Virus record (IMG/VR): IMGVR_UViG_3300009418_000002
Span: 1 to 47,034 of that record
Reading direction: 5' to 3' (one strand)
DNA from: a virus
Length of the DNA: 47,034 bases
The notes under the pieces: generated by a model
Databases searched by the model: none
The model's input: the letters and a program-made list of their open reading frames with translations, nothing else
What the model was told of the DNA's origin: nothing
Translations under genes and position numbers: made by a program
In this document: in pieces, positions 13,314-47,034 of the stretch
Position numbering within the stretch: the stretch's first letter is position 1
Layout: every line of letters begins with the position of its first letter

Positions 13314-13568
13314 TCACTGTGTCAGTCTCCGCGAGATCCACATGCCAAGTATCGCACCGAGACTTGCTCCGACGCCATACGACGCAGCGAACTCCCACGA
13401 CTGATACCCGCTCGATGTGCCAGCGTTTAGCCACCAGACAAAACTAATCAGGAACGCGGTGCATCCGGCATAACCATACTGCCCTCGGCTAATGAACACG
13501 GTCGATGCGCTGACGGGTGCGACTTGCAGACAGCCACGGAGTACCATCTCCAGCACGTCGCCCATCAT
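13314..13568 (-). CDS. small two-helix membrane protein
   Basis: This 84-residue protein starts at the first of two adjacent ATGs, in an ATGA overlap with the methyltransferase gene; AAGGTG lies just upstream, and the second ATG at 13565 has better spacing. Two hydrophobic stretches are visible: GYAGCTAFLISFVWWLNAG and YGVGASLGAILGMWISRRL. Position before the terminase genes gives no clear role. It could be an accessory holin-like or superinfection protein, but that is speculation. Confidence 0.6.
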   Translation of the reverse strand: MMGDVLEMVLRGCLQVAPVSASTVFISRGQYGYAGCTAFLISFVWWLNAGTSSGYQSWEFAASYGVGASLGAILGMWISRRLTQ

Positions 13569-14800
13569 GTCACCTTGGTCGCGGTCTTCCCCGTGAACGC
13601 TTCCCATCGATCAATCGTGACCTGGCAATAGGACGGTTCGATTTCGATGCCGTAGCAATGACGGCTTAGTTGTTCGGCTGCAATAATCGTTGATCCAGAA
13701 CCTAAAAACCCATCGAACACTATGTCATCAGACACACAACTGTTGCGGATAGCTCGACTCATTAAATCATTTGGTTTTGTAGTCGGATGATCGGGACTGG
13801 TTGGTGGACGTGGTATTTCCCACACCGTCGTTTGTGTGCGGTCGTTTATAAAATAATGCGATTTGCCTGACTTCCATCCGTACCATAACGATTCGTGCTG
13901 CCAGTGGTAATCCTGACGACTTAAAACCATTCTGTCTTTAACCCACACAATCATTTGTCGAATTTCGTGTATTGTTTCCAACGCATTCACAACCTGTCGA
14001 TCTCCACCTGACGCACAAACATAAAAACTTCCACCAGACGACAATGGCCATGCTGCAATTGCGCTTTTAAGAAATAAAGCAAACGACTCCGGTGACAGAG
14101 AATCGTTTGGCACAACCAATCCATCTGTGCGTCGTCTGCGCTTTTTTAATTGTTCTATGCTGGCATCATCTTGGTATCCGACGTTATAAGGTGGATCAGT
14201 AAATATCATTTGAGCTTTGTTTCCATTCATTACCAGCGCCACGTCATCGGCGTTCGTGCAGTCACCGCACAGCAACCGGTGGTCGCCAAGCGTAAACAGA
14301 TCACCCGTCTTAATATCCGTAGCGCGTTTCGCTGGCACATCATCAGGATCGGTAAGACCACCATCAGGCTCAGGAGTCTCCAATAGGTCAGCGAGTTCGT
14401 CCTCGTAAAAGAACGGCGACAAGTCCAGCCCATCCTCCGCATCCTTCAGCAACTGGCCAACATCCCACTCAGCTAATTCACCAGTGCGGTTGTCATACAA
14501 CGCCAGGTCGCGCTTCTGAGCCTCTGACAGCCCCGTACGGCGCACCGCGACAAGCTCTGACCCCTTAGCCTCAACCACCTTCAGGTCGGTGATACCAGCC
14601 TCGCCAGCGGCTTCTATGGTCGCGTTCCCTGCCAGCACTTCGTTGTTCTCATCAATGACAATCGAGCGACCGGTGCCGACCTTGTGTAGTGCCTCGACAA
14701 TCATGCCGACATTTCGTGGCGTGTGCTTGCGTCGGTTGTTCGGGTCAGGAACTAAGTCCTTGATATGAGTAAGCGGCTTTGCTCTTTTTTTAGGTGTCAC
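13565..14800 (-). CDS. ParB-like domain fused to DNA (amino) methyltransferase
   Basis: This 411-residue protein starts with GTG. Residues 10-110 form a ParB/Srx-type domain ('IKDLVPDPNNRRKHT', 'VIDENNEVLAGNATIEAA', 'LSEAQKRDLALYDNR'). Residues about 165-405 are a beta-class amino-methyltransferase: 'LLCGDC', catalytic TDPPYNVGYQ (DPPY at 202-205), then the S-adenosylmethionine loop DGFLGSGSTIIAAE near 365-375. It is expected to methylate adenine or N4-cytosine in phage DNA. The fusion is known in phages. Its place just before terminase suggests marking of DNA for packaging or protection from host restriction. Confidence 0.92.
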   Translation of the reverse strand: MTPKKRAKPLTHIKDLVPDPNNRRKHTPRNVGMIVEALHKVGTGRSIVIDENNEVLAGNATIEAAGEAGITDLKVVEAKGSELVAVRRTGLSEAQKRDLALYDNRTGELAEWDVGQLLKDAEDGLDLSPFFYEDELADLLETPEPDGGLTDPDDVPAKRATDIKTGDLFTLGDHRLLCGDCTNADDVALVMNGNKAQMIFTDPPYNVGYQDDASIEQLKKRRRRTDGLVVPNDSLSPESFALFLKSAIAAWPLSSGGSFYVCASGGDRQVVNALETIHEIRQMIVWVKDRMVLSRQDYHWQHESLWYGWKSGKSHYFINDRTQTTVWEIPRPPTSPDHPTTKPNDLMSRAIRNSCVSDDIVFDGFLGSGSTIIAAEQLSRHCYGIEIEPSYCQVTIDRWEAFTGKTATKVT

Positions 14801-15408: not shown

Positions 15409-16641
15409 CTATCCCCTTTTCATATTCATTTCATAGACCTTCTGAACAGCTTGCCCCAGTACGGCTCCCACCCGCACAGCATCCGTGTCGCTCATGGATG
15501 CAATGATATTGCCACATGACCGATGTAACAAGATTCCCGCACGAAATGACAGGGCTAACACCTGGTTAAGCTCGGCGTCTGTAAGTCCAGTAAGACGAAA
15601 GTGAACTGGATACCCTTCCATTAAGCCAGGCGTTCCATTCGCCTCAGCATTGAAGGCTTCGCGTAGAACATGACCTCGTTCCCACATTCGTTCACTAATC
15701 GACTCCGTGCGATATCGTGTGATGACTTCCTTGGCGGCTGATAGTCCAAGCAACGACCCGCCAAACGTGCTACTGATCAGTTGAGCTTCTTCCATGACAT
15801 CTCGCGTCCCACAGATAGCGGCAATCGGGACACCGTTGCCAAGAGCTTTCCCAAAGCACGCAATGTCAGGAATCGTGTCGCTCTTGCACCAGAGTTGTTG
15901 ACTGCCACCGAGCGCATGACGGAAACCGAAAATCATTTCGTCGAAGATTAACAGTGCCCCATGCTTGTCAGCGAGTCGTCGAGCTTCGGTGTAGAACCGT
16001 CGTTGTGAATGCTGCGTGATATCCAGTGAGTCGGCAACAGGAAAACGATACGGCTCGATCACAATCGCTGCCACCGCATTAGGTAAGGGGTCATCGAGTG
16101 AGTCCAATACTCTTGCAAGGTCGGCGTGGTCGTTATCACGGAACGTCGTGATGTGATCGTTGACCTTGCTGTAGTATTCTGTCGCGTTCTTGGGATCGGC
16201 ATAGCGATGTGGAGCTTGACACCATTCATGCCAGCCATGATACGAATGTTGAGCCACTACCACTGTGCTTTGACCTGTAACGGCACGCGCAATCTGCACG
16301 GCTCCCTGCATGGCTTCGCTGCCAGTCATGACGAACCGCGTCATCTCTGCACACGGAATAACTTCTGACAACCTGGTGGCGACTTCATTCTCAAGGCGAT
16401 GGGGCAATGACAGAATTGACCCCATCGTCAGGGCATCACTCACGGCCTTCGTGACTCCCACATCCCCATAGCCCAGTGAAATCGCGCCAAGTCCTGCGAC
16501 TAAATCAATCACCTTGGACTCGTCAGAACACACGACACGACACCCTGACCCCGACTCGGCATAGCAAGGATAGACGTCGGTTGGCCCAACGGCACCAAAG
16601 GCTTTCGACCGTGTTTGCGAATCGCCTGGTGTGTGCAACAT
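15409..16641 (-). CDS. PLP aminotransferase of the HemL/class III type
   Basis: This 410-residue protein is a pyridoxal-phosphate enzyme of the glutamate-1-semialdehyde aminomutase group: 'VTGSEAMQGAVQIARAVTGQSTVVVAQHSYHGWHEW', 'AAIVIEPYR', 'GALLIFDEMIFGFRHALGG', and the PLP lysine in ACFGKALGNGVPIAAICG. In this cassette it is more likely an aminotransferase for a sugar intermediate than a tetrapyrrole enzyme. It is often paired with SpsF-like cytidylyltransferases in surface-sugar loci. It starts directly after the TAG of 16642-17337, with GGGGCG upstream. Confidence 0.85.
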   Translation of the reverse strand: MLHTPGDSQTRSKAFGAVGPTDVYPCYAESGSGCRVVCSDESKVIDLVAGLGAISLGYGDVGVTKAVSDALTMGSILSLPHRLENEVATRLSEVIPCAEMTRFVMTGSEAMQGAVQIARAVTGQSTVVVAQHSYHGWHEWCQAPHRYADPKNATEYYSKVNDHITTFRDNDHADLARVLDSLDDPLPNAVAAIVIEPYRFPVADSLDITQHSQRRFYTEARRLADKHGALLIFDEMIFGFRHALGGSQQLWCKSDTIPDIACFGKALGNGVPIAAICGTRDVMEEAQLISSTFGGSLLGLSAAKEVITRYRTESISERMWERGHVLREAFNAEANGTPGLMEGYPVHFRLTGLTDAELNQVLALSFRAGILLHRSCGNIIASMSDTDAVRVGAVLGQAVQKVYEMNMKRG

Positions 16642-17337
16642 CTACGACGCCCCTTTCAACATCCCGCAGAGGCGTGCCCCCTCAAGGACGTTCTGTGCCG
16701 AGTAGTCGTGAGGCACGAGATATCCACACACCTGTCGAACTCGGTCAAGGTCTTTTTGTCGATCCACGCTGAGCTTCAGATAGCCATAGTCGTGTTCGGA
16801 TAATACGTCATGAGTTTTATAGTTCGAGCGAATCCACGGCGTAACGTGTTCACGGTCATGGCGAGCATTCGCACGTTGAGCCGCCTCATGTAAGACTTTG
16901 GCTGACATGACTTCCGTATCAAACCCATCCGGCCATCGCGCTTGACGGCCGACATTAGACACATAGTCATAGGTCGATTTCAGGTATTCGTCCAAAACGT
17001 ATGACGACACATCTGAGGCCAGCAACGGACAATCACCAGTGATACGCATCACCACATCGGCCTTCATAAATCGTGCAGCATGATCCATGCGTCCCAACAC
17101 ATCCCACTCCGACCCACGATAGACACAGATACCACTCGATGGACGCTCAAATACTGCCGCCAACCGATCATCATGTCCGTTGACACTGGTAACAAGACAG
17201 ATTCCGGTGAGTCCTTCTATGCGAGAGACACGAGTTATGACGTGCTGAATCATGGACTGACCAGCAATTTGAGAGAGCGATTTTCCCGGCAATCGCTTCG
17301 ACCCCATACGAGCCTGAATCAGCGCGACAACTTTCAA
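16642..17337 (-). CDS. SpsF/NeuA-like cytidylyltransferase
   Basis: This 231-residue protein begins KVVALIQARMGSKRLPGKSLSQIAGQSMIQHVITR, the nucleotide-binding signature of CMP-sugar synthetases and SpsF. It also has 'IRITGDCPLLASDV'-type sequence (MRITGDCPLLASDVSSYVLDEY) for substrate and metal. It would activate a nonulosonic acid or similar sugar with CTP. The start is a TTG in a TTGA overlap with the upstream gene; no internal ATG would keep the signature. The neighbours are the synthase and acetyltransferases. Confidence 0.85.
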   Translation of the reverse strand: MKVVALIQARMGSKRLPGKSLSQIAGQSMIQHVITRVSRIEGLTGICLVTSVNGHDDRLAAVFERPSSGICVYRGSEWDVLGRMDHAARFMKADVVMRITGDCPLLASDVSSYVLDEYLKSTYDYVSNVGRQARWPDGFDTEVMSAKVLHEAAQRANARHDREHVTPWIRSNYKTHDVLSEHDYGYLKLSVDRQKDLDRVRQVCGYLVPHDYSAQNVLEGARLCGMLKGAS

Positions 17338-18365
17338 TGGACCACTCTCTCGACAGCACGTGCCTGACAGGAGTGAATCGGTTGAAGAAAATCCTCACCC
17401 CCAAAGCCGCGACGGAAGAACTCGATATTGGATTCCTTTTCGGTGACGCTGCCTCCCTGATGACCCATCTCGTAATACTTCACACCGAGTTCCTTTAAGC
17501 GTTTGATGATGGCCCACTGAATTGGATGTGACACGTTCGGTGCAAGACTCGCAGCACTGGCATAGTAGGCATAGTCTTTCCATCGCAACACATACGCAAA
17601 TCCAAGAACGCTCTCGCCTTCTCTTGCCACAAACCACGACGCATGGTCAGCCAGCACGAAGCTATCCTGACAGACCCATGAATCGGACGGGCGCGTCACC
17701 CGACCGGAGGCGCGGTGGTGTAAGTCTTGGCACAGTTCCCTGGTGTGATCGTGCCGTTCCTCAGTGACCGTGATTGCCGAGTCTCGAATGATGTGCCTGT
17801 AGCTTTTTCTCACGTCAGCCCATAACCTAGTCAGGGGGATAGATAGATCGATAATACGTGTCCTGATGGAGTCTTCCTGCCAGCCGTTGTCTAATACCAA
17901 TGCTGAATACATCGGTGGATTGCACCACATTCCTTTAAGCATGTCATCAGGAACAAAGTGTGGATGAATCGGCATTATGCGAAAACCGACACGACTATCA
18001 GCGTGACTCACTACCGACTCCAACACTTCACACATGATCGGCAACACGACATCCATCGCAAACCGTTCGTCTGGATGATCCACCAACGCTTCATGCAACA
18101 GCAATGGGGCAGGGGCAGGAAGGTCGCCAAGCCCAAACAGGTTAAGCTCTGGATGATAGGTGAGAAGTTGTGCGGCCACGACTCTCCCGTCTACCGTCAC
18201 GCCCCATGAATGATCGACGAGTGTCGGGTTCCGTGCTATCTCATAATCCCGCCAGAGCGGTCGATTCCAGAACCAGAGGGCGTCTTTTTTGATGACAAGC
18301 TCGTCAACTTGTTCTGTGATCTTTACACCTGACACCGGAACCACTTGGATTCGTGTGTCTTTCAT
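17334..18365 (-). CDS. FemAB/GNAT-like acyltransferase
   Basis: This protein has 343 residues from the ATG at 18365 (ATGA overlap with 18362-18889). The N-terminal half has 'NRPLWRDYEIARNPTLVDHSWGVTVDGRVVAAQLL', as in GNAT-type domains, and the second half has 'ADVRKSYRHIIRDS', 'SWFVAREGESVLGFAYVL', 'YYASAASLAP' and 'KRLKELGVKYYEMGHQGG', as in FemAB-type acyltransferases. It is likely to add an acyl or aminoacyl group to an amino sugar. The substrate is unknown. Confidence 0.75.
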   Translation of the reverse strand: MKDTRIQVVPVSGVKITEQVDELVIKKDALWFWNRPLWRDYEIARNPTLVDHSWGVTVDGRVVAAQLLTYHPELNLFGLGDLPAPAPLLLHEALVDHPDERFAMDVVLPIMCEVLESVVSHADSRVGFRIMPIHPHFVPDDMLKGMWCNPPMYSALVLDNGWQEDSIRTRIIDLSIPLTRLWADVRKSYRHIIRDSAITVTEERHDHTRELCQDLHHRASGRVTRPSDSWVCQDSFVLADHASWFVAREGESVLGFAYVLRWKDYAYYASAASLAPNVSHPIQWAIIKRLKELGVKYYEMGHQGGSVTEKESNIEFFRRGFGGEDFLQPIHSCQARAVERVVH

Positions 18366-18889
18366 AACCGATAGTCCAGTGTCCAGATGTCTCCGCGTTG
18401 ACGACTCACCCAAAAGCCGCACGACCGAAACGCGCACAGCGATGGCTCGTTGTGTCGCTTGACGACTGCTTCAAGAGTTGGTACGCCGAGATCCTTGGCC
18501 TTGCGACAGACGGCACGAAGCATTGGTGTGGCATACCCACATCCTCGGTGAATCGGCGCGACAGTAATCGACACCCGACCATGACGCAGCAGATGGCGAT
18601 TCGGTGAATGCGAGTCATCCTGCACAGAAGGTCGCAAGTCGAGGGCAACGGTTCCAAGATCATCCCACTGAGTATGAGCAATAAACGACGGCGTGAGCGG
18701 GTCTTCCATCATGCTGTGGAGCCACTCCAGATGGTCATCGAACTCAATCGGATCTGAGGAAAGCGAGTTTCGTCGTGTCTGTGGATCGTTGGCCCATCGA
18801 TACAGCAGGGGTGCGTCATCTGCCGTGACCTTTCTCAGCCCAACCACGGGATCTGAACCCTGGTGATCCCTGGTATTACCTGGTCTCAT
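18362..18889 (-). CDS. GNAT N-acetyltransferase (PseH-like)
   Basis: This 175-residue GNAT protein has 'GLRKVTADDAPLLYRWANDPQTRRNSLSSDPIEFDDHLEWL', 'VSITVAPIHRGCGYATPMLRAVCRKA' with the acetyl-CoA loop (RGCGYA), and 'LEAVVKRHNEPSLCAFRSCGF'. The order and the 'W.ND......S...I....H..WL' start are those of PseH and related amino-sugar N-acetyltransferases. It is overlapped on both sides by ATGA. It probably acetylates a 4-amino sugar before the synthase step. Confidence 0.85.
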   Translation of the reverse strand: MRPGNTRDHQGSDPVVGLRKVTADDAPLLYRWANDPQTRRNSLSSDPIEFDDHLEWLHSMMEDPLTPSFIAHTQWDDLGTVALDLRPSVQDDSHSPNRHLLRHGRVSITVAPIHRGCGYATPMLRAVCRKAKDLGVPTLEAVVKRHNEPSLCAFRSCGFWVSRQRGDIWTLDYRL

Positions 18890-19734
18890 ACTCCGACGCG
18901 AAACTGCGCCATCTCCGCTTCTTCGTCCACCTGTTGCTTGTCAGAAGTTCCCATCGCCAGTTCAGCGACCTCCACGTTCAGGACATAGCTCTGTAGCTGG
19001 TCAGGAGTCATGGCGTGTGCATAGTCTGGATTCTTCGGGTCGGTGTCAGGCACTCTGAAATGTGCCTCAAGAATCTCAGCACCCGCACAGACCGCAAGTG
19101 CGCCAGAGGTCACGTAGTTGGGAGCCGTATGATCTGAGAATCCACTAAACGCCAAGGCTTCACGCTTGTTGTCGCCCTTCGACGGAGCCAGGAACGAGCG
19201 ACGCAATACCTTCAAATTTAGCGACCCGTAAGAAGCCGGATACGCACTGACGCAATGCAACAGCTTGAGTTCGTCGGCGGTATAACTGAACGCGAAGTCC
19301 AGATCATTGATACTGGTCATGCCTGTGCTGACGATCATGGGCTTCATACATGCAGACATTGCGTCCCGCAACTCTGCATCCTGGCACTCAAATGACGAAA
19401 TCTTAAACATCGAGACATGCGGGGCGATGACCTCGACATCCTCTGGCAAATAGACGGTGCAAAGATAATCGACCCCTCGTTGCTTGGCGATAAGAGCAAG
19501 TTGTTCATGCCACTCGGCTGGCCATTGAAGGAGATTCTTATAGTGGGCCGCGAACGGAGTCTTCGTCGCGTGGCGGCGTTTCGCCATTTTCCTGGCTGAG
19601 CTTGTCCATTGAAACTTCACCGCACTTGCGCCAACAGAAGCCGCGACCGTGATGAGATGTTCCATCTTTGAAAGGGACGCATCCCCGCAGGATCCAGCTT
19701 CAGCGATGAGGGTCGTTTTGATATTGTTGGGCAT
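18886..19734 (-). CDS. NeuB/PseI-family nonulosonate synthase
   Basis: This 282-residue TIM-barrel protein has 'LIAEAGSCGDASLSKMEHLITVAASVGASAVKFQ', 'CTVYLPEDVEVIAP', 'FKISSFECQDAELRDAM', 'MIVSTGMTSINDLDFAF', 'LLHCVSAYPASYGSLNL', 'GFSDHTAPNYVTSGALAVCAGAEILEAHFRVP'. These are the NeuB/PseI/LegI marks, including the metal and phosphoenolpyruvate residues. It condenses phosphoenolpyruvate with an amino sugar. The usual C-terminal SAF (antifreeze-like) domain of about 60 residues is absent. It overlaps the Gfo/Idh/MocA gene by about 35 bases. Confidence 0.92.
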   Translation of the reverse strand: MPNNIKTTLIAEAGSCGDASLSKMEHLITVAASVGASAVKFQWTSSARKMAKRRHATKTPFAAHYKNLLQWPAEWHEQLALIAKQRGVDYLCTVYLPEDVEVIAPHVSMFKISSFECQDAELRDAMSACMKPMIVSTGMTSINDLDFAFSYTADELKLLHCVSAYPASYGSLNLKVLRRSFLAPSKGDNKREALAFSGFSDHTAPNYVTSGALAVCAGAEILEAHFRVPDTDPKNPDYAHAMTPDQLQSYVLNVEVAELAMGTSDKQQVDEEAEMAQFRVGV

Positions 19735-20563
19735 CGTGAATCATCTCCACGACAAGCGCACCATCTGTGATAGTGGCTGCCGTTGTTGAAGGTTTCCGAA
19801 GTGTCAGAGCTTGCATGAAGTCCTTGAGTTCGTCTTTATACATCGGTGCAATCGCTGACGGTGGATGTCGCAAATTATAATTAGTCTTCGTCTGGTCGTC
19901 CCATGCGACAGTCAGGGTTCGACATTCCTCTCGTGGATGGCTGACATATTTCAACTCACAATCAATTTCCAAGTCTTCTTTCTTTTTGCGTGGCGCGGTA
20001 AGACCAATCCATGCCGAGGTCGGTTCCACCTGTGCGAAGTTGACGCGAGTCGCCCCAAAGAAGTGGCAAGCAAGATCAAGTTCATGACTGGCTTCATAAA
20101 TGACATCCCCATACGTCGAAGCGAATCCCGGCCAGAGACTTCGACACGAATAGCATGTCAGCTTGACATGGGTCGCTCTGGTTCCTTTTTTAAGCGTGGC
20201 ACACATCTCGCTCATGGCACGAATTATCGTGCGATTAAACCGCCAGCAGTAGCCGACCTGCGTGATACGTCCCACGCTCATCTCTACCAGGGAGGTCGCC
20301 TCGTCAAGCGATGAACATAACGGCTTCTCGATAAAGACTCCCGCCTCGGTCTGTTCAAGTGCATCTTTTGCGATGTCGTAGTGGGTTGAGAATGGTGTGC
20401 AGATCAGAATCCCATCAGGCTGACGAGACAATGCGTCCTCAAGTGGAGGCGAATCTGAGACTCGTGGGTCAACAATTTCGATGTCATCTTGGACACCGAG
20501 AGCGAGGGCGTTCCGATGATGACGCTTGCCAATGGAACCGAATCCAATAATGAGCAGTCGCAT
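19700..20563 (-). CDS. Gfo/Idh/MocA-family sugar oxidoreductase
   Basis: This 287-residue protein begins RLLIIGFGSIGKRHHRNALALG, the NAD(P)-binding Rossmann loop, followed by 'ILICTPFSTHYDIAKDAL' and 'VFIEKPLCSSLDEA' (EKP motif), and 'YEASHELDLACHFFG' with the substrate-domain histidine. It would oxidise or reduce a sugar hydroxyl in the cassette. It is shorter than usual (330 or more). AGGGA precedes the ATG, which follows the TGA of 20564-21562 directly. Confidence 0.88.
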   Translation of the reverse strand: MRLLIIGFGSIGKRHHRNALALGVQDDIEIVDPRVSDSPPLEDALSRQPDGILICTPFSTHYDIAKDALEQTEAGVFIEKPLCSSLDEATSLVEMSVGRITQVGYCWRFNRTIIRAMSEMCATLKKGTRATHVKLTCYSCRSLWPGFASTYGDVIYEASHELDLACHFFGATRVNFAQVEPTSAWIGLTAPRKKKEDLEIDCELKYVSHPREECRTLTVAWDDQTKTNYNLRHPPSAIAPMYKDELKDFMQALTLRKPSTTAATITDGALVVEMIHDAQQYQNDPHR

Positions 20564-21562
20564 TCAATATCCCTGCTCGTCTGCTGATGCGATAAGTGAC
20601 CGTAGCTGGGCGTCATTCATGAGCCTATCCGGTGCGTTGCTGGTGTATCGGTAGGTGGAAGGCACGGCTTTTCCTGCCCAGGCATCCTGCGTCCACGTTG
20701 GGCCAGATGGCGGGACAATGTAGAGGTCACACGACGAATCATAGAGTGTGCGGGTTACTTCCTCAGTCGAGAGCAAGACCTCATGCACCTTCTCGCCACC
20801 AGCCCGAATTCCAATAACAGACGCATTGAGTTCTCTGAAGTTCCCTGTCTGCCTAACGACTGTTCGCATCAAGTCATGCACGGATGCCGACTTGAGTGAC
20901 GGCACGAAGATTTCGCCACCCACTTGACGATCTATCGCTTTCCAGACCAGTTCAACGGCCGCCGATAACGGCATCCAGAACCGTGTCATCTCGGTGTCGG
21001 TAATCTGTAGCCGCTCACCTCGCTGTTGCTGCTTGCGCCAGAGTTGCAAGACCGACCCGCGTGAGCCAAGCACGTTGCCGTAGCGCACGACAGACGCACG
21101 GAACGTCTCAGGGTGATAGGCATTGGAGCCAATCACGAAACCCTCAGCACTGGCCTTGGTTTTGCCATATTGGTTCATCGCCTCAACCGCTTTATCTGAA
21201 CTGATGAAGACCAACTGCTTGACCCCACAGGCAAGACAGGCATTGACGACGTTCATTGTGCCGATGACATTCGTCTTAATCAGTTCGCCGCCATCGGTGT
21301 GGGCGTTGACCCGTTTCAATGCCGCCGCATGAACCACCACGTCCGTGCCATAGAACGCCTGACACAGCCGATGATAGTCACGCACGTCCCCCAGGTAGGC
21401 GCGGAACTGGTGATAGGTTTTGAACTGGTCGCCAATCTGGTCAGCTTTCACCTCATCGCGTGACAAGGAAATCAGTCGCGTCACTTCTGGATGATGCTCT
21501 TGACAGTGCCCGATGAAGGCTCGACCAAAACTGCCCGTCCCGCCTGTGACCAGTATCTTCAT
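20564..21562 (-). CDS. PseB/CapD-like UDP-sugar 4,6-dehydratase
   Basis: This protein has 332 residues from the ATG at 21562, which overlaps the preceding small gene by ATGA; a longer frame is an unlikely start. The NAD-binding MKILVTGGTGSFGRAFI, 'DVVVHAAALKRVNAHTDGGELIKTNVIGTMNVV', the active site 'VFISSDKAVEAMNQYGKTK' and 'RYGNVLGSRGSVLQLW' match short-chain dehydrogenase type dehydratases such as PseB (UDP-GlcNAc inverting dehydratase). It makes the 4-keto-6-deoxy intermediate that starts pseudaminic or legionaminic-type pathways. Confidence 0.9.
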   Translation of the reverse strand: MKILVTGGTGSFGRAFIGHCQEHHPEVTRLISLSRDEVKADQIGDQFKTYHQFRAYLGDVRDYHRLCQAFYGTDVVVHAAALKRVNAHTDGGELIKTNVIGTMNVVNACLACGVKQLVFISSDKAVEAMNQYGKTKASAEGFVIGSNAYHPETFRASVVRYGNVLGSRGSVLQLWRKQQQRGERLQITDTEMTRFWMPLSAAVELVWKAIDRQVGGEIFVPSLKSASVHDLMRTVVRQTGNFRELNASVIGIRAGGEKVHEVLLSTEEVTRTLYDSSCDLYIVPPSGPTWTQDAWAGKAVPSTYRYTSNAPDRLMNDAQLRSLIASADEQGY

Positions 21563-21783
21563 GTGCCTCGGCTCATTCGGTTGATGTACCGATGATCGAC
21601 ATTGATCCGACACTTCACTCGCATCCGTTCGTGGGCCGGAAGCGACCAGAACCACATCTTCTCCTCGATGACATATCGTAAACGAGGATAGATTCTGAGA
21701 GCCATCCCACACACGCCAAGACCAGTCAACCAGATGAGATGGTTACACCACGAACGAGCGGTCGCAAAATGGGCAGGTGACAT
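21559..21783 (-). CDS. small protein with one membrane segment
   Basis: This 74-residue protein overlaps its upstream neighbour by about 40 bases and the dehydratase gene by ATGA. Residues 14-29 (CNHLIWLTGLGVCGMALRIY) form one hydrophobic stretch, and the C-terminal half is basic (KCRINVDHRYINR). No family is recognised. Its tight coupling to the sugar cassette suggests a link, which is inference. Confidence 0.5.
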   Translation of the reverse strand: MSPAHFATARSWCNHLIWLTGLGVCGMALRIYPRLRYVIEEKMWFWSLPAHERMRVKCRINVDHRYINRMSRGT

Positions 21784-23695: not shown

Positions 23696-24238
23696 CTATC
23701 CCTCCTTGGTGAGCGCATCAGAGATGGTGCGCCCAAATAATGTTCCCTGAATAACACCAACTTCAACGGGAAGATTCATTGGACAAACGCTTGACAGTCT
23801 CGTTATTTCCCATTTGCGCTTGTCGCACAAGGGATGATTGTCCTGTCGATTACGAGTGTTGTTATTCCATGGCTTGCCTTTGATCGTGCCGACCAGACAC
23901 CAACCAGAGGCATTTAAGGTAATTCCAGGTTCACTGGCAAGTGTGTAAGTAATCAAACGGTGATAGCCCATAGACTTAGCGGCTTTCCATGCGGCTCCAT
24001 ACAGTTTCGATGGCGCATTCTTAGTCCCATCGGTGCAGCATCTCGTAACCTCCAAGGTTAGTCCATCATCAGAGGCACGAGTCACGGGTCGTCCAACCAT
24101 AATCACGCCGACAACCTTAATGCCATCATTAACAGCGATGCCCCACTTCCACCCCTGTGGAGGCACATGGTGTCGATGATGGGTCTGAACAAACCGACAG
24201 GCATCCTTGTAGGTTAGAGGCTGGAGAAAGAGAGTCAC
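23696..24238 (-). CDS. XF1762/Mom-like GNAT-fold protein
   Basis: This 180-residue protein starts with GTG, with GGAGGG just upstream. The motif run 'YKDACRFVQTHHRHHVPPQGWKWGIAV', 'VVGVIMVGRPVTRASDDGLTLEVTRCCTDGTKNAPSKLYGAAWKAAKSMGYHRLITYTLASEPGITLNASGW' is the XF1762-type phage family, which resembles the Mu Mom DNA-modification protein. Mom changes adenine in DNA; whether XF1762 proteins do so is unsettled. The gene lies between the initiator and nuclease genes. Confidence 0.85.
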   Translation of the reverse strand: MTLFLQPLTYKDACRFVQTHHRHHVPPQGWKWGIAVNDGIKVVGVIMVGRPVTRASDDGLTLEVTRCCTDGTKNAPSKLYGAAWKAAKSMGYHRLITYTLASEPGITLNASGWCLVGTIKGKPWNNNTRNRQDNHPLCDKRKWEITRLSSVCPMNLPVEVGVIQGTLFGRTISDALTKEG

Positions 24239-25011
24239 TATCCCTCCTTTCGATGTCGTTCAAGAAAGCGTTTACTGGCATCAATCATGGTGAGTGTGTT
24301 CGTGGTCAGTTTCGGTTTCTGATTAACCTGTGGTTCATCTTCCCATCGGCGTTCCTTGAGAAACCGCACCGCGTGGCAAATGTAGCGTTCGTCAATATCT
24401 TCATCCTCCCATGCTTTGAGATACAGCGTCAGTCCGTCCATCACCTCCTGATAGAGTGGTGTGTCGTGTTCAATTTTCAACTTCTTCCAAATTTCCGATG
24501 CGGCTTTCTTTCCTCGATTTCGTGGATACCTCGACCAGAATGATTCAAATCGAGCCGTATAGTTATTAGTACTATTATTAGTACTATTATTAGTACAGTC
24601 TCCACTTAACACCAGCGTATCAGTCGTCTGTAACTGCACGTCCTTGTGTGGTTTATCAGCGTCAGCTAGTAACACCGATGTTACAGGGGTAGCCACATGG
24701 GTATTACTACCCTTCGGTGAAATCAGTTTCAGTTGATACAAGTTCTCCACGTATTGCTGCGGCTTGATGGTCTGGTGTTGCACAGCCAACGCGCCGATGC
24801 CGAGCAGTTCCTTCACCCACCGATCAACGGTCGGCATCGAACACTTGAGAACCGTGGCAAGTTCTGACCGTGATGGATTCGCTAGACCATCACGGTCACA
24901 CCACCTTGCCGACAGATACGCATACAGCCGAATGGCTCCATGCTGAATAGACGATTCAAGAATCCAGAGCGGGACATGGGCGAGTGGTCCCGTGTCACTT
25001 TTGAGTGCCAT
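24238..25011 (-). CDS. replication initiator-like protein (winged HTH plus DnaD-like tail)
   Basis: This 257-residue protein has the N-terminal 'HVPLWILESSIQHGAIRLYAYLSARWCDRDGLANPSRSELATVLKCSMPTVDRWVKELLGIGAL', a winged helix-turn-helix of the replication-initiator type (recognition helix SMPTVDRWVKEL). The C-terminal 'FESFWSRYPRNRGKKAASEIWKKLK' resembles DnaD/phage replisome-organiser tails. Between them is an Asn/Ser/Thr linker encoded by 12-base repeats. It likely opens the phage origin and recruits host helicase. The start is an ATG with GGAGAAAA. Confidence 0.8.
   Translation of the reverse strand: MALKSDTGPLAHVPLWILESSIQHGAIRLYAYLSARWCDRDGLANPSRSELATVLKCSMPTVDRWVKELLGIGALAVQHQTIKPQQYVENLYQLKLISPKGSNTHVATPVTSVLLADADKPHKDVQLQTTDTLVLSGDCTNNSTNNSTNNYTARFESFWSRYPRNRGKKAASEIWKKLKIEHDTPLYQEVMDGLTLYLKAWEDEDIDERYICHAVRFLKERRWEDEPQVNQKPKLTTNTLTMIDASKRFLERHRKEG
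24563..24598. repeat. three tandem 12-bp AT-rich repeats (iteron-like)
   Basis: The unit TTATTAGTACTA occurs at 24563-24574 and 24575-24586 exactly, and again at 24587-24598 with two final changes. Each unit carries the palindrome AGTACT or part of it. It encodes the NNSTNNSTNN linker of the initiator. Small AT-rich iterons inside an initiator gene recall the lambda O gene origin. Origin function is inference. Confidence 0.6.
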
Positions 25012-29396: not shown

Positions 29397-29726
29397 CTAG
29401 ATGCTTCGGTGTATCCAGAGCCAGTCACGTTCAACGGTAAGAGCCTCAGCGCGAGAGGCGTGTGGTGACATCACGATGGTCGGGCCATCGACAGGCGACA
29501 GGTTCACTTGCCACTGACATGACCAGTGCCGTGTCCATTCCACGAGGCCGATAGCCCGACACCGATGAAAGCACCACCGCAGGACGCGATGATGCGGTTC
29601 GATGTGCGACACCCGACGCTGATGACAGGTGCCTAGTGTGCGAAGGCTGGCGAGTGGGGCATCATCGACAAAGCTCAGAGAGCCGTTTTGCACGGTGATA
29701 CAGACGTGGTGTATGCCAATACTCAT
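29397..29726 (-). CDS. hypothetical His/Trp/Arg-rich protein
   Basis: This 109-residue protein starts in an ATGA overlap with the DUF2997-like gene. It is rich in His, Arg and Trp ('HHRVLRWCFHRCRAIGLVEWTRHWSCQW'). It has several Cys and could bind metal, but no spacing is convincing. It is held in the Ycf35/DUF2997 operon by overlap. Confidence 0.5.
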   Translation of the reverse strand: MSIGIHHVCITVQNGSLSFVDDAPLASLRTLGTCHQRRVSHIEPHHRVLRWCFHRCRAIGLVEWTRHWSCQWQVNLSPVDGPTIVMSPHASRAEALTVERDWLWIHRSI

Positions 29727-32965: not shown

Positions 32966-33874
32966 TCATGTATGGCAATAGCCACTGCATTCGTTGTCAA
33001 ACAAATCCATCTGGTCGGTGTCGTCGTATGCGTCTTCGATTGGCACACCTGACTGATGCAGATACGGGTCACCACGCAGCAAAGCAATTCCCTTCGTGGC
33101 CATGACACGCTGGTCTTTCTCGGTAGCACTCCCGTCATCGATACGGGCTTTTGTGGCAAGGTATTCATCCCTCGTAATCTTTGGAATCTCCCGCAAGCTG
33201 CGGTCAAAGACAACCGCTTGGGCAAATTCTTCCGGTCTATGCTTCCGCATCTCGGCAAAATACCGTGACGAATGAAAGGGGCATCCAATGCAACTGCTTT
33301 TCACGGGTTCTCGCCCAATCACCTCTGTCACATACCGCTTGCAATCCTGCCTGTTGAAGCCAATTTCAATAAGGGGCCATCGTATGGTTTCCCAATGTTC
33401 GGTCGATGGCTTCATTCGACTGGCTTCGTCGGTAGAGATTCCAATCCATGTTTCGACATGATGTTTCCATCGTTGGTGAGGTTTATATCCGAGCAAACGC
33501 CGGACCTCTTTGACAATCGGTTGAATCTTGTATTCAGACGTACATTGCCGCCGCACGAATCCTTGTGAGCCGTCTTGGTTTTTAATATGAAGGGGCATCA
33601 TCGATGCGCCACGGGGAGAACGAATCGATCCGGCTGTTACTGTTCTGACCTCCACACCGTGTTCCTTTGCCCACACCTTCATATCTGACAAATGACGCAT
33701 CACGGCCGGTGGTTCCCATTGGGTGTCAGCGAAGATGGCAACGTCAGGTTTTTCAATGCTTGGAAATTCGTCACGACACGCAGCAATGAGAAGCGCCGTA
33801 GATTGCACCCCTGCACCAAAAGACAGCGTTCGATAATCGGGCGTTCTTTGATTGAGTTGCTGTGTTTTTGACAC
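32966..33874 (-). CDS. PAPS reductase/PP-loop-like protein
   Basis: This 302-residue protein has the PP-loop 'YRTLSFGAGVQSTALLIAACRDE' (SFGxGxxS at about 18-25), then 'AIFADTQWEP', 'TEHWETIRWPLIEIGF' and 'SSCIGCPFHSSRYFAEMRKHRPEEF' with the CxxC pair used by some PAPS-reductase-like and DndC-type enzymes. Such phage proteins bind ATP and may form sulfur-containing or adenylated groups. The substrate is not clear; the sulfur-related role is inference. Confidence 0.8.
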   Translation of the reverse strand: MSKTQQLNQRTPDYRTLSFGAGVQSTALLIAACRDEFPSIEKPDVAIFADTQWEPPAVMRHLSDMKVWAKEHGVEVRTVTAGSIRSPRGASMMPLHIKNQDGSQGFVRRQCTSEYKIQPIVKEVRRLLGYKPHQRWKHHVETWIGISTDEASRMKPSTEHWETIRWPLIEIGFNRQDCKRYVTEVIGREPVKSSCIGCPFHSSRYFAEMRKHRPEEFAQAVVFDRSLREIPKITRDEYLATKARIDDGSATEKDQRVMATKGIALLRGDPYLHQSGVPIEDAYDDTDQMDLFDNECSGYCHT

Positions 33875-35248: not shown

Positions 35249-35422
35249 TTATATAGTGTCCTTCGCCTTCCTGAGCTTCTCTTCCCGAAACTGATCTGCA
35301 CGTTTACTGAACGCCTCAAAAGATTCGCCATCGCGTGGTTTCGGAGTCATTGGACAATCATGAACATTCCAATCATCGCGGGACATCACTTTGCGGCATT
35401 GTTTGCACCTTACTGAATACAT
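35249..35422 (-). CDS. small zinc-finger-like protein, first gene after the structured leader
   Basis: This 57-residue protein begins MYSVRCKQCRKVMSRDDWNV, then HDCPMTPKPR, then a helical part ending RKAKDTI. CxxC at 6-9 and HxC at 21-23 suggest a zinc finger. The start is an ATG with AAGGAGAGTG, 17 bases after the closing helix of the noncoding stretch. It is the first gene of the early operon. The frame overlaps no other good frame. Confidence 0.7.
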   Translation of the reverse strand: MYSVRCKQCRKVMSRDDWNVHDCPMTPKPRDGESFEAFSKRADQFREEKLRKAKDTI

Positions 35423-35452
35423 AATGACACTCTCCTTGAGTAAGTAAAGTTT

Positions 35453-35483
35453 GATGTGTTGTTCTTTCAGGATGTTCGTATGT
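35453..35483. repeat. 31-bp imperfect inverted repeat, left arm
   Basis: Pairs with 35581-35611; 27 of 31 positions match. As minus-strand RNA the four differences become three G-U pairs and one C-A mismatch. As plus-strand RNA they become one G-U pair and three mismatches. The loop is 97 bases. Confidence 0.9.
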
Positions 35484-35580
35484 CGTATGCCAAGAGGGTC
35501 GCACCTGAGATATTTATTAGGGCCTCGGCACGATACATAGTGATCGTCCTAGCCTCACACACGTTACCTTTGACTGCTTA

Positions 35581-35611
35581 ACACACGAACACCCTAAGAG
35601 AACAACACATC
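35581..35611. repeat. 31-bp imperfect inverted repeat, right arm
   Basis: Pairs with 35453-35483 (see that entry). On the minus strand it begins GATGTGTTGTTCT, shared exactly with the plus strand of the left arm. The same TGTTCT core is also part of the boxA-like site at 36070-36063. Confidence 0.9.
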
Positions 35612-36051
35612 CAATGAAGACTCACCAGTACCGGAACTCTGCATCCGGCACCGGTGAGGTGACGCTAGCCTCAACTGAATCGGCGATACGTGGTGTCAAC
35701 GTCCACGACATCGTAATCTTCAAATATGGTGGATGCGAGGCTTCTCAGCAAGTTTGCCACACTTGCCTCGGTGACACTCGCGACCGCAAAGTTTCAAGAT
35801 ATTCGTTTCGCTCTCTGGCGGCGACTGGCGTGCGTCTCATCTCAGCGAGAATGAACCTTTCGGCGACGTGATCACGCTCTTGGGTGTTTTAGTTGCTTGA
35901 ACATCTCACGAACTTTGTACTGATCACTTCTAAGAGCTTGCTACTCTTCGCAACCCCTAGCGCGTCCTCTGTGGCTGTCTTGGCGTCGTGGCTATTAAGC
36001 TCGGCTCGGCTCCTGGCGTTGTGCGCTACGGACGTTTGTAGCTGACCAGCT

Positions 36052-36066
36052 ATTTAATTTTCAAAG
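36052..36066 (-). promoter_or_regulatory. boxA-like 15-mer with following hairpin, near main promoter
   Basis: The minus strand reads TGTTCTTTGAAAATTAAAT; the last 15 bases also occur at 25189-25175. TAGCT-GGTC-AGCTA follows as a small hairpin (36052-36039). TGTTCTTT is close to the boxA core of rRNA and phage nut sites. It lies about 15-30 bases after the predicted start site. It may load Nus factors so that polymerase can cross the whole genome. This is inference. Confidence 0.5.
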
Positions 36067-36090
36067 AACACATTACTTACTTACATATAG

Positions 36091-36119
36091 ATAATACACT
36101 AATTATACATATTACACAA
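36091..36119 (-). promoter_or_regulatory. sigma70-type promoter for the leftward operon and noncoding RNA
   Basis: On the minus strand the -35 is TTGTGT (36119-36114), the spacer is exactly 17 bases, and the -10 is TATTAT (36096-36091). The expected start is near 36084, which is just where the 5' strand of the closing helix begins. The surrounding bases are AT-rich. This is the best promoter in the window by eye. Confidence 0.6.
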
Positions 36120-36143
36120 GTTACCTCTCGCTTAGCTCCATGA

Positions 36144-36154
36144 TTCACGGTGAA
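36144..36154. promoter_or_regulatory. TTCACGGTGAA dyad and phased A-tracts between divergent genes
   Basis: The perfect dyad TTCAC-G-GTGAA lies 25 bases upstream of the -35 of the leftward promoter and about 70 bases upstream of the plus-strand gene. A-tracts at 36153-36157, 36164-36167 and 36176-36179 are spaced at near one helical turn, which would bend the DNA. It may be an operator or part of the control of the divergent genes. Confidence 0.35.
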
Positions 36155-36223
36155 AAACACACGAAAACATTAAGGAAAACGCACGTCCAAAAAAGATTTG
36201 AACTCATTTGTGGTACGCTGTGA

Positions 36224-36520
36224 ATGTCGATGGGAATCAAGTCAAAATTCGCACGATGGGCTATCGGTCAAGGCGTGTCTGACTACCTCAAAAAGATGGG
36301 CGTCGATAAGCCGCATCGACAGCGAGTTGTGAAGGCGGTGCAAGATATGTTGAACCCGAAGAAAGAACCTGTGATGCTTGGCGGTGTGGTATCAGTCGCC
36401 GTCGCACTCGGCGCGGCGTTCGGACTTGACTTAACGGTCGAACAACTATCCGTCACAGTGGCAACGGTCATTGCCATCGTGACGTTCGTCCAACGGAAAT
36501 TCGTCTCCCCTAAACACTAG
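36224..36520 (+). CDS. holin-like membrane protein
   Basis: This 98-residue protein has a basic N-terminal part ('MSMGIKSKFARWAIGQGVSDYLKKMGVDKPHRQRVVKAV'), then one or two hydrophobic helices 'VMLGGVVSVAVALGAAFGLDLTVEQLSVTVATVIAIVTFVQRKFV'. The two membrane parts with a short polar turn fit small holins. It lies beside the lysozyme gene but on the opposite strand. No good Shine-Dalgarno sequence is seen; the Met at codon 3 is a possible start. Holin assignment is by context. Confidence 0.6.
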   Translation: MSMGIKSKFARWAIGQGVSDYLKKMGVDKPHRQRVVKAVQDMLNPKKEPVMLGGVVSVAVALGAAFGLDLTVEQLSVTVATVIAIVTFVQRKFVSPKH

Positions 36521-36529
36521 GAGGTCATC

Positions 36530-36793
36530 ATGGGATGGGTCACGATTGGCCTGAAGATCTTGCCGTTCATCGTAGAAGCGGTCAACTGGGTCGAGAAGTT
36601 TGTGACAAGAAAGGGTCAAGAAAAGCAAGACGCCGCTATCAAGATGTGTGTGTCGATGCTTGGGATTGCAGAGGCCGCACTCGAAAGAGACATCCTCGAA
36701 GATTCTGAAGTCGAAGAGGCGGCACGCAAGACAATTGATGCCGTGGTCGCGCTTCAGAACATCATCGCCAAGAAGCAAGCCGATTCGTCTTAA
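36530..36793 (+). CDS. small helical protein paired with the holin-like gene
   Basis: This 87-residue protein has a strong AGGAGG. The N-terminal 'WVTIGLKILPFIVEAVNWVEKFV' is amphipathic or weakly membrane-bound, and the rest is helical and charged ('KQDAAIKMCVSMLGIAEAALERDILEDSEVEEAARKTIDAVVAL'). It resembles small phage proteins found beside holins in lysis cassettes. Its stop overlaps the stop of the convergent lysozyme gene. Confidence 0.6.
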   Translation: MGWVTIGLKILPFIVEAVNWVEKFVTRKGQEKQDAAIKMCVSMLGIAEAALERDILEDSEVEEAARKTIDAVVALQNIIAKKQADSS

Positions 36794-46283: not shown

Positions 46284-46581
46284 TCGCTGGCACTCCTTTC
46301 TCAATACTTGGTGGCCCTTCGACTTCAATAACCAGGCGAGACTCCGTTAGCTTCTCGCCAACAACTACGCCGTTCCAGACCCACCGATTCGACCCAAACT
46401 CCAACCACACATCTAGCGGTGAGCGAGAGGCCCACGGCTCATGTCGGGATACGACAGAGCCGGAGAGCCTGAATCGCTGAGTATGTGGGAGTATGAGAAC
46501 GGGTTCAAGTTTCCAGTCGCCAAGACAAGCAGCAACTTGATACTTGAACCGCAGGAGGCCCGATTTTCCGGTCGCCCTCAT
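46276..46581 (-). CDS. hypothetical tail protein
   Basis: This 101-residue protein has 'WKLEPVLILPHTQRFRLSGSVV', 'SPLDVWLEFGSNRWVWNGVVVGEKLTESRLVIEVEGPP', beta-rich with many Trp. It lies between the tail-tube-like gene and the chaperone gene and overlaps the chaperone start by eight bases. It could be a tail completion protein. The ATG has only a weak Shine-Dalgarno sequence. Confidence 0.65.
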   Translation of the reverse strand: MRATGKSGLLRFKYQVAACLGDWKLEPVLILPHTQRFRLSGSVVSRHEPWASRSPLDVWLEFGSNRWVWNGVVVGEKLTESRLVIEVEGPPSIEKGVPANV

Positions 46582-46590
46582 CAGGGAATT

Positions 46591-47004
46591 TTATGTCGCG
46601 GCAGTCGCCCGTGCCACATCACTCGCTGACTGAATCGTCACCGGAGCATCGAGGAGGCTTCCCACTGACCCGCCCTGCGGCTGATACGAATCAATCACGC
46701 CAATTGCTGAGAAGCGCGGATTGATTGCCGTCGAGCAGATGGCCTGGGGTCGCCACTCATAACAGGCCGTCGTTCCCACCAGGCTGAACAGCGTCGCGTC
46801 AACATTGGCAGCGGTGTAGTCTTGGTGAAAATTCACGTCAAGACTCCAGGTTTTGAGACCGCCCTTATTGATACGGGTGTCGTCACCCATCGCGGTTTCA
46901 TCCTGTACCTCACTCCCGTAGTTGAACGTCAACGATTCAACGTGGTCGCTCAGGTCTACGCCATTCACCTCGAATAGCGCGTTCTTGTAAATGATTGTTG
47001 CCAT
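46591..47004 (-). CDS. tail-tube-like protein, copy 2
   Basis: This 137-residue paralogue of 491-892 shares MATxIYK, the GVDLS/GYDLS turn and DETAMGDDTRINKGGLK. The middle has 'VNFHQDYTAANVDATLFSLVGTTACYEWRPQ'. The start is an ATG with GAGGAG and lies in the terminal overlap. One copy is probably the main tube protein, and the other a variant, tail terminator or tail-end protein. Confidence 0.7.
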   Translation of the reverse strand: MATIIYKNALFEVNGVDLSDHVESLTFNYGSEVQDETAMGDDTRINKGGLKTWSLDVNFHQDYTAANVDATLFSLVGTTACYEWRPQAICSTAINPRFSAIGVIDSYQPQGGSVGSLLDAPVTIQSASDVARATAAT

Positions 47005-47034
47005 TTGCCTATACTCCTCTTGGTTGTTATTGAA
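46912..47034. repeat. terminal direct repeat, right copy (circular overlap)
   Basis: Identical to bases 1-123 (see that entry). It contains the first 31 codons of the tail-tube-like gene 46591-47004 and its ribosome site. Confidence 0.95.

Follow-up and report, generated by a model that had tools for sequence, protein, structure and literature searches.

The window analysed here is the whole 47,034-nt stretch of the viral record IMGVR_UViG_3300009418_000002. Its first and last 123 bp form a direct repeat (1-123 and 46912-47034), for which the simplest explanation is a complete genome of 46,911 bp, circularly permuted, plus the 123-bp end repeat; a second contig, G002, spans the end-repeat junction, and the offsets fit. 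Nearly all of the genes are densely packed on the minus strand, in an order that runs from the early region through replication and DNA methylation to the terminase, portal and capsid genes, and then to the tail genes and an endolysin. The only clearly plus-strand genes are that for a holin (36224-36520; phrog_9752, E 3.5e-5) and the next small gene (36530-36793). Between the holin gene and the divergent first early gene is a gap of 800 nt (35423-36223), by far the largest non-coding stretch of this compact genome. The first early gene (35249-35422, minus strand) encodes 57 amino acids, has a AAGGAGAG ribosome-binding site and gave no family match above the cut-off.

The only relatives of the terminase are distant ones, found in MAGs of Planctomycetota, Chloroflexi and Acetobacteraceae. 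Elsewhere on the minus strand, positions 15409-21712 hold a cassette resembling those for synthesis of a nonulosonic acid of the pseudaminic, legionaminic or sialic type, with Polysacc_synt_2 (PseB-like), Gfo/Idh oxidoreductase, NeuB, GNAT, cytidylyltransferase and class III aminotransferase members. A single protein at 13565-14800 has a ParB-like N-terminal part followed by a DNA methyltransferase, while the product of 23696-24238 has a weak Pfam match, below the cut-off (E 4.5e-4), to the Mom DNA-modification family. In the early region, 32966-33874 (also minus strand) encodes a protein resembling phosphoadenosine phosphosulfate reductase (phrog_424, E 1e-37), for which no relatives were found in viral_contigs. 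Two contigs that match the window exactly have their ends on the two sides of the RNA region, L126 (the same as L005) starting at 35413 and L127 (the same as L006) at 36220; these ends may mark an assembly break or a genome end.

Using the holin, we searched for relatives of the locus. One diverged relative was found, IMGVR_UViG_3300008216_001107 (L128, L135; hereafter L128), which carries a diverged copy of the whole arrangement. Other contigs matching the holin are identical to the window, and L129-L134, with holins about 47% identical, have no match to the RNA. When the window is aligned with L128, three blocks within the gap are kept, at 36054-36022, 35966-35728 and 35612-35453, with 2 substitutions in 33 positions, 24 in 239 and 8 in 159, respectively; we call the second block module I and the third module II. 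The stretches separating these blocks are unrelated in sequence or unequal in length. Across the rest of the two phages, several tail proteins have 37-59% amino acid identity and some genes are not common to both, while the holin and the next gene are 92-93% identical. Part of the conservation could thus have come from a recent exchange of this segment between the two phages.

The substitutions in the blocks show no codon phase. Pooled over the three blocks, they fall 12/10/10 on the three codon positions, compared with 6/0/18 in the holin gene and 5/4/26 in the gene next to it. As the neighbouring genes do show a codon phase, we conclude that the blocks are under constraint, but not for an encoded protein; their substitution rates are 5-10%, against 18-30% at third codon positions next door. 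Short reading frames are present on both strands of the gap, but coding on either strand is rejected by the codon phase of the substitutions, and no conserved protein reading frame was found in the stretch. The original prediction that the gap holds no believable gene is therefore borne out.

The original prediction also described many helices on the minus strand, and here the picture is mixed. Across 661 nt, the fold of the minus strand is more stable than those of its shuffles (z -5.0, 20 shuffles; plus strand z -3.7), and this excess comes mainly from a long stem and a hairpin of about 15 bp. The 5' part (36080-35917), on the other hand, is no more stable than shuffles (z +0.25), and neither is module I alone (z -0.85). 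The 15-bp hairpin, at 35621-35658, corresponds to a predicted 14-bp stem and does exist in the window, but it is not conserved in L128. It lies in a variable spacer between the two modules (35613-35727), which is 115 nt long here and 286 nt in L128. A 9-bp helix proposed to close the RNA from end to end, and so to mark its boundary, is not supported, since a run of nine pairs occurs in 5.8% of shuffled 30-nt end pairs and the longest run in L128 is five pairs.

The predicted 31-bp stem is present, and no other inverted repeat in the genome is as strong. It forms the frame of module II (35453-35612, minus strand), in which arms at 35611-35581 and 35483-35453 enclose a domain of about 97 nt. Extended to 34 nt (35450-35483 and 35581-35614), the arms are 85% Watson-Crick complementary, and of the five departures three become G-U pairs on the minus strand and one does so on the plus strand. 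Module II has a z-score of -7.8 on the minus strand (200 shuffles), -5.7 on the plus strand and -6.1 in L128. In a genome-wide scan of 160-nt windows, a few other places equal or exceed it in stability relative to shuffles, namely the coding stretches at 46401-46560, 24801-24960, 20161-20320 and 29441-29600. Module II is distinguished instead by how long its stem is, as its inverted-repeat score of 19 is followed by a next best of 12 across the genome. A near-perfect stem of 31 bp is a good substrate for RNase III, and by the criterion of a near-perfect helix of more than about 20 bp, both phages have such a stem, making it a candidate RNase III processing site. Module II has too few substitutions for its preservation in the fold test described next to be separated from chance.

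Module I (35728-35966, minus strand), which differs from L128 by small indels in addition to its substitutions, provides a different kind of evidence. We folded the block from one phage and compared the number of pairs broken by the other phage's substitutions with the number expected if these were placed at random. The minus strand loses 4 pairs against an expectation of 11.0 (p 0.002), and folding the other phage's block instead gives 4 against 7.9 (p 0.028); the corresponding p values from MEA structures are 0.000 and 0.001. The plus strand gives p values of 0.13-0.27. The predicted fold of module I is thus shown computationally to be preserved, and in the minus strand specifically. A consensus fold of the two sequences has z-scores of -7.7 on the minus strand and -4.7 on the plus strand, with nine one-sided compatible changes, no broken pairs and no two-sided compensatory changes. 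Because both sequences went into the fitting of this consensus, and dinucleotides are not preserved in its shuffles, the single-sequence fold test carries more weight; the consensus folds also separate the minus from the plus strand by energy only, and not by pair counts. As for covariation, two sequences yield no two-sided change, while one-sided compatible changes and avoidance of pair-breaking are seen.

In the short block upstream of module I (36022-36054, minus strand, AATAGCTGGTC..CGTAGCGCA), GCUGGUC may pair with GAUCAGU of module I. Two G-U pairs in the consensus fold of this block become G-C pairs in L128.

Upstream of the blocks, we read a putative minus-strand promoter from the sequence, TTGTGT-17 nt-TATTAT (36091-36119), which would place the RNA start near 36084, as had been predicted. 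The sequence is present, but it has only 8 of 12 consensus bases, which is under the threshold of the promoter scan and was not reported there. L128 retains the -10-like TATTAT and ATATGTAA. Some 14 nt beyond the predicted start is a word, TGTTCTTTGAAAA (36058-36070, minus strand), that is boxA-like by a consensus chosen after the sequence had been seen; it is a lead only. It is the sole exact match in the genome to the pattern TGYTCTTTRAMAA, and when looked for in L128 it is not clearly kept. At the other end of the locus, a terminator scan found no terminator-like site on the minus strand between module II and the first early gene, which starts 30 nt downstream of module II. Both modules, their order and the promoter region ahead of them are common to the two phages. 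The reading frame that follows the RNA at a similar distance in L128 is apparently unrelated, although that contig stops after about 30 codons of it.

Searches for known RNA families were negative. With Rfam release 15, neither the window nor L128 has a match at gathering level to GOLLD, ROOL or any other family, and at E<=10 GOLLD, ROOL and OLE are still absent, the only matches being trivial ones (Zeta-pan, Plastid-ndhJ). Nothing was found in collections of phage and plasmid DNA beyond a 28-nt match (E 0.06) to giant enterobacterial phages, which we take as chance. Pattern scans of viral_contigs returned the known copies and chance matches only, the latter (L136-L141) being rejected by their flanks, and a pattern scan of the genome collection returned none. 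A covariance model of module II, run on 50 related records, detected no copies beyond the two already known, although many of these records are fragmentary and may end short of the locus. A 719-nt gap in a relative, G015, proved to be coding. A retron was considered as well, but the lack of any reverse transcriptase among the 30 Pfam-scanned proteins of the window (12.8-35.4 kb) speaks against it.

Constrained non-coding blocks are thus shown computationally at the locus, as is a very strong long stem that, like the domain inside it, is present in both phages. A conserved RNA on the minus strand very probably exists. The original prediction is confirmed in part: the non-coding stretch and its long stem stand, and a conserved structured minus-strand RNA is supported by the diverged relative, while the closing helix and the proposed identity with GOLLD or ROOL are not supported.

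The reading that we favour, tentatively, is that this RNA of about 630 nt is the structured 5' leader of the early transcript, and that it is probably processed. RNA polymerase would start near 36084, make the leader and continue into the early genes, as there is no terminator to separate the leader from them. RNase III or a similar enzyme would then cut the 31-bp stem, by analogy with the leader-trailer stems of pre-rRNA, which would release the RNA upstream and leave the early mRNA with a new 5' end. Until this cut, the leader would most likely act in cis on the polymerase and aid its passage through the long one-directional gene array, and the boxA-like word could, speculatively, recruit Nus factors. 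Antitermination is one candidate for the leader's task, suggested by analogy, and we consider it possible but not probable. That the leader is kept while the gene behind it apparently differs probably points to an operon-wide or trans function and not to regulation of a single gene. Counting against a processed leader are the small number of distinct sequences (two), in which no two-sided compensatory change occurs, a promoter that is weak by consensus and the boxA-like word that is not clearly kept; in addition, neither module I nor the 5' part shows unusual stability, and the holin is just as similar between the phages (93% of amino acids).

There are precedents for parts of this arrangement. 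Polymerase-modifying leader RNAs of phages, nut and put, sit just downstream of early promoters (PMC9378689, PMC6614801), and the HK022 put RNA is about 70 nt long with two stem-loops (PMC9378689). The element described here is likewise a phage RNA element ahead of early genes and just downstream of an early promoter (a putative one, at 8 of 12 consensus bases), but the conserved RNA spans about 600 nt, about nine times longer, and antitermination is only a candidate function for it. In pre-rRNA, boxA occurs together with long stems of 27-30 bp that are cut by RNase III (PMC10250234). The combination here of a boxA-like word close to the predicted start with a long near-perfect RNase III-type stem resembles the signals of rRNA leaders and lambda nut, but the word is not clearly conserved in L128; the stem also closes about 97 nt that are not rRNA, and does so at the end of the leader rather than enclosing it.

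The main rival to a processed leader is a free-standing large ornate RNA similar to GOLLD, ROOL or OLE, which would have its own promoter, accumulate during infection, and assemble or bind a partner, with its modules joined by variable arms. We regard this as possible but not probable. Large ornate phage RNAs do exist (PMC12286853), and the RNA described here is like them in being large, structured and non-coding, with conserved modules that are kept while the lengths of the spacers change freely; GOLLD and ROOL are phage-borne as well. An RNase III-like stem could release such an RNA from the mRNA. GOLLD and ROOL are, however, often encoded near tRNA islands (PMC12286853), unlike the RNA here, which has no tRNA neighbours, ARAGORN finding none anywhere in the genome, and the absence of any Rfam match, of a terminator of its own and of a conserved closing helix also counts against this explanation, as does a 5' part that is not unusually structured. 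The RNA further differs from these classes in being joined to an early operon and in having far fewer supported helices.

It is also conceivable, but unlikely, that the modules are two independent small elements, module I being a cis-acting leader and module II a hairpin element serving as a processing site or giving a small RNA derived from its loop. The modules fold separately, and the spacer between them is unrelated in the two phages and more than doubles in length from one to the other; on the other hand, the two modules share their order and promoter region in both phages.

Still less likely, in our estimation, is an inverted repeat acting as DNA, at a replication origin or a packaging or recombination site. 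A long inverted repeat in the largest non-coding gap, with identical contigs ending on both sides of it (35413 and 36220), is the sort of pattern that such a site might give, but the strand-specific preservation of the module I fold and the excess of G-U pairs in the minus-strand stem argue for RNA, there is no GC-skew switch here to support an origin, and a repeat search found no tandem iterons. The least likely explanation is an ordinary untranslated gap or a decayed gene whose conservation reflects recent exchange between the phages, which would fit a comparison of two sequences only, with short frames on both strands and an adjacent holin 93% identical, but not the lack of codon phase, a stem with z below -6 in both phages, blocks that change far less than adjacent third codon positions, or unrelated spacers between those blocks, which indicate that the segment had time to diverge.

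Returning to the processed leader, one might go further and propose a new class of large phage RNA, in which a leader of about 600 nt, cut free at a long stem, would serve as an RNA machine acting on the host polymerase or another host target, and which would be common to a group of uncultured phages; we consider this wider proposal possible but not probable. Phage genomes are compact, and some 600 nt of constrained non-coding RNA heading the early operon implies an important task. A leader acting on polymerase would exceed the known put RNAs about ninefold in size, whereas a free RNA would be a further class among the very few large RNAs known from phages. The conserved modules provide defined targets for deletion and probing.
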